A stretch of DNA of 41,135 nt from positions 1 through 41,135 of IMG/VR virus record IMGVR_UViG_3300005530_000017. One strand, written 5' to 3'. Position numbers and translations under genes: made by a program. The number at the start of each line of letters is the position of its first letter. The first letter of the stretch is position 1. This DNA is from a virus. The notes under the pieces are model-generated. The model worked only from the letters and a program-made list of their open reading frames with translations. It did not search any database and had not been told where the DNA came from. This document shows, one piece after another, positions 7,803-9,912 of the stretch.

Positions 7803-8160
7803 GATGCCGAGTGAAACCGAGCGGACCTGCACGACATGCCTACTCTGCCTGCGCGCAGACTACGGCTACTCCAACTACACGGTGGAGGGGACGACGCTTT
7901 CGTGCCTCGCTGGGCTGAACGATGCGCTCGATGGTCAAGAAGAGCCGTGGCGCGAAGTGACACCGGAGCTGGCTGCGATTTTGGACGTCGCCAAGACTTG
8001 CAGACGATATCGCGAGGGCGCGCCAGCGACGCTTGACGTGGATCACGAAGGACTGCCCTACCCAGGGTCGTGGACCGTCGCCCAAGTCAAAGCGGCGGGA
8101 TGCACCGACGACGACGAGGCGGCTGAGTTGATGGTCCAGCGGGAGGCCCGGAGCCCATGA
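7795..8160 (+). CDS. Cys-cluster protein of unknown function
   Basis: 121 residues from GTG 7795, chosen because GGAG at 7784-7787 lies seven bases upstream; ATG 7804 is the alternative. CTTCLLC near residues 13-19, a later Cys (SCLAG) and CRRYREG near residue 65 could bind a metal. The C-terminal third is acidic and helical. Family not recognised. Its TGA overlaps the start of the second RusA-like gene. Confidence 0.55.
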   Translation: MAEMPSETERTCTTCLLCLRADYGYSNYTVEGTTLSCLAGLNDALDGQEEPWREVTPELAAILDVAKTCRRYREGAPATLDVDHEGLPYPGSWTVAQVKAAGCTDDDEAAELMVQREARSP

Positions 8161-8690
8161 GCGGGTTCGCCCTGTCGCTCGAGGAGCAGGTTGACGCTTT
8201 GGTGGCGAAAGGTGCCCCACGCGACAAGGCGGAAGCCGCCGTCTACGGACAGGCGCGTGCCGGCGTCGTCGCATCCGAGCCCGAGCCCGAGAAGCCAACC
8301 GTCGCCCTGCCCTTCACCTTCACGGTCCCGTGGACGCTGCTGGTGGCCGACAACGAAAAGACGGTGCCGCAGAAAGTCCGCACCAAGGACGACCGGATCG
8401 CCGTCAAGAACTGCCTGACCGCCAAGTACGCGCACGCAAAGAAAGAGATCCAGAAGCAGCTCAAAAAGCAGACGGGCGATGCCGATCCGTTCGAGGGCCC
8501 TGCGCACGTCGTGTATCGCTTTTACTGGCCAGACCGGCGCCGCCACGACGCCGCGAACATGCTCAAGCTGCTGAACGACTGCCCTTCCAAGATCGTCTAT
8601 CGCGACGACGCCCAGCTCCACCGTGGCACTTGGACGACGGCCGTAGACCCGGACCGTCCCCGCTGCGAAATCGAAATCCGCCCGCTGTAA
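8157..8690 (+). CDS. rusA: RusA-like Holliday-junction resolvase (copy 2)
   Basis: 177 residues from ATG 8157. Residues 50-177 match RusA: first strand LPFTFTVPWT, a helix with Lys residues, then RRRHDAANMLKLLNDC (D131, N134, K137, D141), IVYRDDAQLHRG (D150-D151) and a last strand PRCEIEIRPL. RusA dimers cut Holliday junctions. Residues 1-45 are an extra helical extension with EEQVDALVAKGA-type spacing that could be a small protein-binding module. This copy fits the family better than the one at 2395. It precedes the RNA ligase by 19 bases. Confidence 0.8.
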   Translation: MSGFALSLEEQVDALVAKGAPRDKAEAAVYGQARAGVVASEPEPEKPTVALPFTFTVPWTLLVADNEKTVPQKVRTKDDRIAVKNCLTAKYAHAKKEIQKQLKKQTGDADPFEGPAHVVYRFYWPDRRRHDAANMLKLLNDCPSKIVYRDDAQLHRGTWTTAVDPDRPRCEIEIRPL

Positions 8691-8709: not shown

Positions 8710-9912
8710 ATGGAACCCGCCATTTTCGGCACGCACGACGAAAAGACACTGGCGCAGCTCGCGGACGTGGCCTCCCGCGCGGACCGGGCCGCGATCATGG
8801 CCGACGGACATCTGGGCTACGTGATGCCGATTGGCGGCGTGGCGGCCTACCGGAACCAGGCCAGCGTCGTCGGCGTCGGGTTCGATATCGCGTGCGGCAA
8901 CGCGGCGATCCGCACGGATCTGACAGTTGAGAGCTTCGACCGCCCGCGCTGGCTCGAGCTCGCGGACGATATCGCGGCGACGGTGAGCTTCGGCGTGGGA
9001 CGGTCGAACCGGGCCGACGATGCGCCGACCGAGCACGAGCTGTTCAAGTCTGACGCATGGGATCTGCTAGCTACGTCGGTCCGTTCGGCGCTCTGGCAGA
9101 AGGCTCGCCAGCAACTCGGCACCGTCGGCTCGGGCAATCACTACGTCGATGTGTTCACCGACGAGCAGGGGCGCATCTGGGTTGGCGTCCATTTCGGCTC
9201 GCGCGGCCTCGGTCATACCATCGCGTCGGGATTTCTCGCGGTTTCGCAGAACCAGCCGTGGGGGACTCGCGTACCTGAACGCGAAGCGCTGCTTGACCTT
9301 GATACCCCGCTCGGTGCGGACTACTGGGCGCTGATGAATCTCGCGGGCGAGTACGCCTACGCTGGCCGCGAATGGGTCGCGCGGAAAGTGGTATCCATCC
9401 TCGGCGGGACCGAGCAGCAGTTGGTCCACAACCACCACAACTTCGCGTGGCGCGAGACACACGAGGGCGAAGACTATATCGTCGTCCGCAAGGGTGCGAC
9501 GCCCGCGTTCCCCGGCCAGCTCGGATTCGTCGGCGGCTCGATGGGCGACGACTCCGTGATTCTTCGCGGCGCGGAAGGTGACACGGCCGAACAGCGCGCG
9601 GCATTGTATTCGACCGTCCACGGCGCCGGCCGTGTCATGTCTCGCACACAGGCCCGCGGCAAGACGAAGGGCTGGGGACCGAAAGCCCGCATCGTCGCGC
9701 CCGGCCTCGTCTCACAAGAAATGCTCGACACCTGGATCAACGAGAAAGGCGTGATCCTGCGCGGCGGCGGACTGGATGAAGCGCCGCACGCCTACCGGCG
9801 ACTTCCCGACGTGCTGGCCGCGCAAGGCTCGACCATCGAAGTCCTGCACACGCTCACGCCGATCATCGTCTGTATGGCGGGCGCTGACGAACACGACCCG
9901 TACAAAGACTGA
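8710..9912 (+). CDS. rtcB: RtcB-like RNA ligase
   Basis: 400 residues from ATG 8710. RtcB joins RNA 2',3'-cyclic-phosphate or 3'-phosphate ends to 5'-OH ends using GTP and Mn2+. All key motifs are present in order: MADGHLGYVMPIGG (31-43), GFDIACGN with D59 and C62, GSGNHY with H144, VHFGSRGLGH with H161, VHNHHNF with H240/H242/H243, and HGAGRVMSR with H304, the guanylylated His of the family. The C-terminal part keeps EAPHAYR and the LTPIIVCMAG end. It is intact and compact compared with cellular RtcB. No archease gene is nearby. In a phage it could repair tRNAs cut by host anticodon nucleases. Confidence 0.93.
   Translation: MEPAIFGTHDEKTLAQLADVASRADRAAIMADGHLGYVMPIGGVAAYRNQASVVGVGFDIACGNAAIRTDLTVESFDRPRWLELADDIAATVSFGVGRSNRADDAPTEHELFKSDAWDLLATSVRSALWQKARQQLGTVGSGNHYVDVFTDEQGRIWVGVHFGSRGLGHTIASGFLAVSQNQPWGTRVPEREALLDLDTPLGADYWALMNLAGEYAYAGREWVARKVVSILGGTEQQLVHNHHNFAWRETHEGEDYIVVRKGATPAFPGQLGFVGGSMGDDSVILRGAEGDTAEQRAALYSTVHGAGRVMSRTQARGKTKGWGPKARIVAPGLVSQEMLDTWINEKGVILRGGGLDEAPHAYRRLPDVLAAQGSTIEVLHTLTPIIVCMAGADEHDPYKD

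Follow-up and report, generated by a model that had tools for sequence, protein, structure and literature searches.

Genetic context of rtcB in the phage genome

The window analysed here is a stretch of 41,135 nucleotides, positions 1 to 41,135 of IMG/VR virus record IMGVR_UViG_3300005530_000017, and comes from a soil phage that is likely to be temperate, as suggested by the presence of an integrase. Its left arm carries, after a gene for a RusA-like Holliday junction resolvase, an ORF encoding a member of the RtcB family of RNA ligases (Table 1). This gene, called in a preliminary description of the same DNA, proved to be real, with an exact ATG-TGA reading frame whose product matches PF01139 (E=3.9e-68; 231 bits against a cut-off of 27; residues 15-388) and PHROG 1075, 'tRNA splicing ligase' (2.5e-69). 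An AlphaFold model, for which 59 sequences (the window RtcB and relatives) served as input, reached a mean pLDDT of 93.3, and all 16 significant matches in a PDB comparison were RtcB structures, headed by RtcB-GMP (4dwq), with a TM-score of 0.74 and an E-value of 5.9e-28 against the canonical fold of the P. horikoshii 4dwq/1uc2 type. The protein thus displays the features of the RtcB superfamily (PF01139), including a profile match along its whole length, the dinuclear metal ligands with the guanylylated histidine, and the RtcB fold. It does not belong to the RtcB2 family, since its score with TIGR03073 (RtcB2-PrfH) is 80.5 bits against an NCBIfam cut-off of 271.8. As judged against five relatives, dN/dS values (0.12-0.20 in four of the five comparisons, synonymous sites being saturated in the fifth) indicate that the gene is under purifying selection. 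No tRNA gene was detected within the window, and no Rfam match for a structured RNA was found there.

Table 1. Features at the phage rtcB locus and selected tRNA genes at related loci (positions without a prefix are those of the window).
Feature	Position	Strand	Basis or remark
RusA-like Holliday junction resolvase, directly upstream of rtcB (19 bp gap)	8157..8690	+	PF05866 1.3e-12; PHROG 34 2.5e-11
RtcB-family RNA ligase ORF, 400 aa, ATG-TGA	8710..9912	+	Profile matches, fold
Metal ligands D59 and C62, motif VGFDIACGN	8884..8895	+	Invariant in 163 relatives; E. coli D75/C78
N143, H144 (triphosphate/metal), then Y145-V146-D147 at guanine-pocket positions F204/E206 of P. horikoshii; D147 for canonical Glu	9136..9150	+	
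Metal ligand H161	9190..9192	+	Alignment
Metal ligand H243	9436..9438	+	Alignment
H304, predicted nucleotidylated histidine, motif STVHGAGR	9619..9621	+	E. coli H337; invariant
M389-A390 where canonical RtcBs have a C-terminal Lys-Gly (K480 P. horikoshii, K407 E. coli)	9874..9879	+	
C-terminal tail DPYKD	9895..9909	+	Kept in most of the subfamily; low model confidence, pLDDT 67
Phage tRNAs with long variable arms near rtcB	L032:3612-3890, L032:5958-6051, L022:9496-9589, L047:7683-7774, L007:9372-9464		

Conserved catalytic residues and a rebuilt guanine pocket

Residues D32, D59, C62, N143, H144, H161, H243 and H304 align with E. coli D48, D75, C78, N167, H168, H185, H281 and H337, respectively, and are kept in essentially all of the 163 closest relatives. 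The earlier statement that the metal ligands and a guanylylated His304 are present was thus correct for both the catalytic residues and the H304 numbering. The same description had proposed a complete active site, a view that has to be revised for the guanine pocket. In P. horikoshii RtcB, F204, E206 and K480 touch the guanine base, and single alanine mutants at these positions are each inactive unless archease is added (PMC3973293). Their counterparts in the window protein are Tyr145, Asp147 and Met389; a second alignment places Ala390 at the K480 position, and Lys occurs at neither Met389 nor Ala390. The guanine contacts that characterize canonical GTP-dependent RtcB (Glu206 and Lys480) are thus both missing.

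These substitutions are highly conserved, D147 being found in 163 of the 163 relatives and M389 in 162, whereas both the Glu and the C-terminal Lys are retained in all 74 canonical RtcBs compared (copies from E. coli, Gemmatimonadota, Deinococcota and Pseudomonadota, together with those of ten other phages). Tyr in place of F204 is shared with some canonical enzymes, so that the Glu-to-Asp and Lys-to-Met pair alone can serve as a diagnostic feature. From these alignments, the paired change marks out an entire subfamily, none of the 74 canonical proteins having it. Two outlying sequences, L264 (F-x-N...MADD) and L259 (F-x-Y...MAG), have lost both residues too, which suggests that the loss of Glu and that of Lys are coupled. 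The DPYKD tail is missing from some bacterial members of the subfamily, and its Lys399 was rejected as a general substitute for K480, as members L265, L270, L271 and L273 have no tail.

Other irregularities were encountered in individual rtcB genes. The bacterial copy closest to the window (L085:8001-9203) has an in-frame stop ahead of the final residues of the conserved tail. A second RtcB relative, L263 (G093:C9:10200-12000), in which several catalytic residues are changed, is likely a non-ligase paralog, to judge from its sequence; the same genome has a canonical copy. Canonical rtcB genes from many Deinococcota genomes (e.g. L275) are interrupted beyond profile position ~50 by a long in-frame insertion, giving two separate profile matches in open frames of 880-1070 aa, a pattern as expected of inteins.

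Distribution and origin of the subfamily

RtcB in itself is common among phages (591 of 50,697 phage records), and matches were found in 189 IMG/VR contigs. Among the matches listed, three phages carry members of the present subfamily, with 46-54% identity to the window protein, the others showing at most 34%. A member of the subfamily is also present in a culturable phage, Sinorhizobium phage AP-16-3, and Meiothermus luteus has a relative. The best matches are genes of bacterial chromosomes, with 77% identity in Gemmatimonadota and 69% in Meiothermus, and to judge from them the subfamily resides mainly on bacterial chromosomes. In the limited literature collection covered, no description of a Gemmatimonadetes RtcB subfamily was found, and this pocket-altered group is apparently undescribed.

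In the phylogenetic tree, the window sequence is placed with the Gemmatimonadota copies L085 and L088, in a group rich in Gemmatimonadota sequences (SH-aLRT 94-95), and both of these genes (77% identity) lie among ordinary bacterial, non-phage neighbours. Because of this nesting and level of identity, the window copy was probably captured from a Gemmatimonadota host. A separate group of 30 rows is entirely viral, and well-supported branches force at least five changes between bacterial and viral labels, indicating several transfers of rtcB between bacteria and viruses. Neighbour clustering across 163 loci revealed no conserved operon partner; apart from rtcB itself, the one cluster that recurred very often was an antisense ORF over rtcB. 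The idea that the two RtcB types exclude each other in Gemmatimonadota was considered and dropped, as cases were too few and one genome (G014) clearly has both.

Association with archease, RtcA and tRNA genes

The preliminary description had noted the absence of archease, which was confirmed for the entire viral record; the window accordingly lacks the partner, in the same genome or operon, of the RtcB-archease tRNA-splicing pair. This absence is the rule for the whole subfamily and not a peculiarity of the phage. Archease was identified in 13 of 81 Gemmatimonadota genomes. All 13 belong to the set of 15 genomes that carry canonical RtcB, whereas the 19 genomes whose sole RtcB is the short form yielded no archease (Fisher p 1e-7, not corrected for phylogeny); for under half of these 19, assignment to the subfamily was made from the sequence, and for the rest from bit score alone. 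RtcA was likewise found in only one of 19 host genomes of the subfamily. Given both distributions, the subfamily appears to work alone, without archease, which is notable because the studied archaeal enzyme, when substituted at these sites, needs archease.

A tRNA gene lies within 500 bp of rtcB in 14 of 70 non-redundant viral loci of the subfamily (null expectation 5.7, p<2e-4), always on the same strand, and in 9 of 57 bacterial ones (null 2.6, p 2e-4), as compared with 0 of 58 loci of canonical bacterial rtcB. At several loci (Tunturi_5, L022, L032, L047, L049 and L062), rtcB is in or beside clusters of 7-32 tRNAs, and at L050 a gene for an ATP-grasp RNA ligase (PF09414) overlaps the rtcB end. 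Such linkage and the L050 ligase gene are independent hints at tRNA as a substrate. With an association above chance and missing from canonical bacterial loci, tRNA repair is the best-supported role of the subfamily, although tRNA genes may also stand next to rtcB because of integration sites or of gene-dense tRNA regions. No tRNA gene was found beside rtcB in the window or in its nearest relatives L005, L085 and L088.

Several phage tRNAs near rtcB, of types that normally have a short arm (Lys, Asn, Ala, Ile), are predicted to have long, base-paired variable arms (Table 1). Intron-bearing phage tRNAs were rejected as candidate substrates, the long tRNAs near rtcB having long variable arms and no introns. 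A 3.3 kb contig binned as Gemmatimonadetes has rtcB amid at least eight same-strand tRNA genes (L101:454-2432) and could be a piece of phage DNA that was assigned to a bacterial bin. In Tunturi_5, rtcB is followed within the tRNA cluster by a RimK-like gene for the modification of ribosomal protein S6 (L004:9378-10157); in Anabaena, one repressor is common to rtcB, rimK and a tRNA operon (PMC10272220).

Proposed function and relation to known systems

The explanation that we favour, with a confidence just above even, is that of a stand-alone RtcB-type RNA ligase, acquired from a Gemmatimonadota host chromosome, that mends cleaved tRNAs for a temperate phage and has an altered nucleobase pocket. 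Such an enzyme would act independently of archease and RtcA. A nucleotide would be loaded onto His304 with two Mn2+-type metals and passed on to an RNA 3'-phosphate, derived from a 2',3'-cyclic phosphate, after which the activated 3' end would be sealed to a 5'-OH RNA end, the whole ligation using a pocket devoid of the canonical Glu and Lys contacts. Cleaved tRNAs would be the most likely substrates in this phage, and the putative benefit in infection would be to sustain translation when tRNA is cut by RNases of the host or of infection stress.

The protein shares its fold, metal ligands, nucleotidylated His and Arg308/312 with the canonical RtcBs that work with archease (P. horikoshii 4dwq/1uc2, Thermus TTHA1785, human RTCB). 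In contrast to these, it has neither the guanine-contacting Glu and Lys nor an archease, is about 80 residues shorter and has an extra C-terminal tail. The RtcBs of E. coli and of jumbo, actino- and Listeria phages are likewise archease-free, about 400 aa long and endowed with all catalytic residues, but they show only ~30% identity to the window protein and keep the F/Y-x-E motif and the terminal Lys; moreover, E. coli has RtcA/RtcR, whereas the hosts of the present subfamily mostly have no rtcA. The chromosomal short RtcBs of Gemmatimonadota, Meiothermus, Hydrogenibacillus and others belong to the same subfamily (64-77% identity, same pocket residues, usually the same tail), and differ from the window copy in being bacterial genes that sometimes stand beside tRNA genes. 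The T4 Rnl1/Pnkp system has likewise been proposed to mend tRNA broken in infection, through an ATP-grasp ligase and a kinase whose chemistry is unrelated to that of RtcB.

As a phage gene, the window rtcB is ordinary; the interest lies in a widespread bacterial and phage subfamily that lives without archease and is changed at two pocket positions reported as essential in the archaeal enzyme when archease is absent. The subfamily makes the GTP dependence of RtcB chemistry directly testable, and its same-strand linkage to tRNA genes offers a concrete hypothesis on what phage RNA repair acts upon. One tentative reading, which we hold to be possible but rather doubtful, is that the subfamily has been freed from GTP, the Glu-to-Asp and Lys-to-Met changes letting His304 take ATP or any NTP without archease; it would then constitute a tRNA-linked, cofactor-relaxed 3'-phosphate RNA ligase of bacteria and phages. 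In this respect, the K480A mutant of P. horikoshii RtcB, when supplied with archease, uses ATP better than the wild type (PMC3973293). An archease-free ligase of relaxed cofactor use for 2',3'-cyclic-phosphate ends would, if real, be a useful reagent. By analogy with the same enzyme, in which a single Ala at E206 or K480 abolishes activity without archease (PMC3973293), activity of the window RtcB is not guaranteed. These mutants could also point to a catalytically weakened relic in which the pocket changes abolish NTP binding. We regard this as most improbable, because D147 and M389 are themselves almost invariant, the catalytic set is preserved across 163 sequences and dN/dS values are low, all of which fits a conserved, working alternative pocket better than a relic.

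A more specific role was put forward in the preliminary description, namely counter-defence by a ligase that undoes the cleavage of tRNA by host anticodon nucleases that abort infection. An RNA ligase acting on tRNA is backed by the fold, the catalytic residues and the tRNA linkage of the subfamily; the counter-defence part finds no direct support in the window, which has no tRNA genes and neither a linked nuclease nor another counter-defence gene. Same-strand tRNA linkage in several independent phages is consistent with it, as are the precedent of T4 Rnl1/Pnkp against PrrC and the published proposal for phage RtcB (PMC7824862, PMC10264068), the idea having been put forward for jumbo-phage RtcB (PMC7824862). 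Yet the subfamily occurs as an ordinary, stand-alone chromosomal gene in many bacteria, beside tRNAs there too, so that the phage copy may merely boost a host function, and we consider specific counter-defence conceivable but on balance unlikely.

Lower still in probability is a part in mending rRNA or ribosomes, or a moron function that helps the lysogen under stress in general, similar to RtcB2-PrfH or to E. coli RtcB mending MazF-damaged 16S rRNA. The integrase, and hence a likely temperate lifestyle, would suit this role, and repair of 16S rRNA is a known function of bacterial RtcBs (PMC9223846). The protein is, however, not an RtcB2 (TIGR03073 score of 80 against 272), a PrfH neighbour is absent, and the linkage observed is to tRNA rather than to rRNA or release factors. 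A very remote prospect is that the protein ligates no RNA and instead attaches a nucleotide to DNA or RNA ends as a cap, shielding phage DNA ends near the RusA resolvase. End capping is reportedly carried out by M. xanthus RtcB3 and by the E. coli enzyme (DNA3'pp5'G), and the RusA-type gene directly upstream in the window has, at L005, a vaguely similar counterpart in layout, a short unassigned ORF directly upstream of rtcB. The ORFs preceding rtcB in the window and in L005 nevertheless have no detectable homology, for which reason RusA was rejected as a functional partner, and no replication neighbour is conserved across the subfamily. At 2098-2931 of the window, 5.8 kb from rtcB, lies an ORF with no Pfam match whose product resembles that of the small L005 ORF directly before rtcB (phmmer 8e-30).
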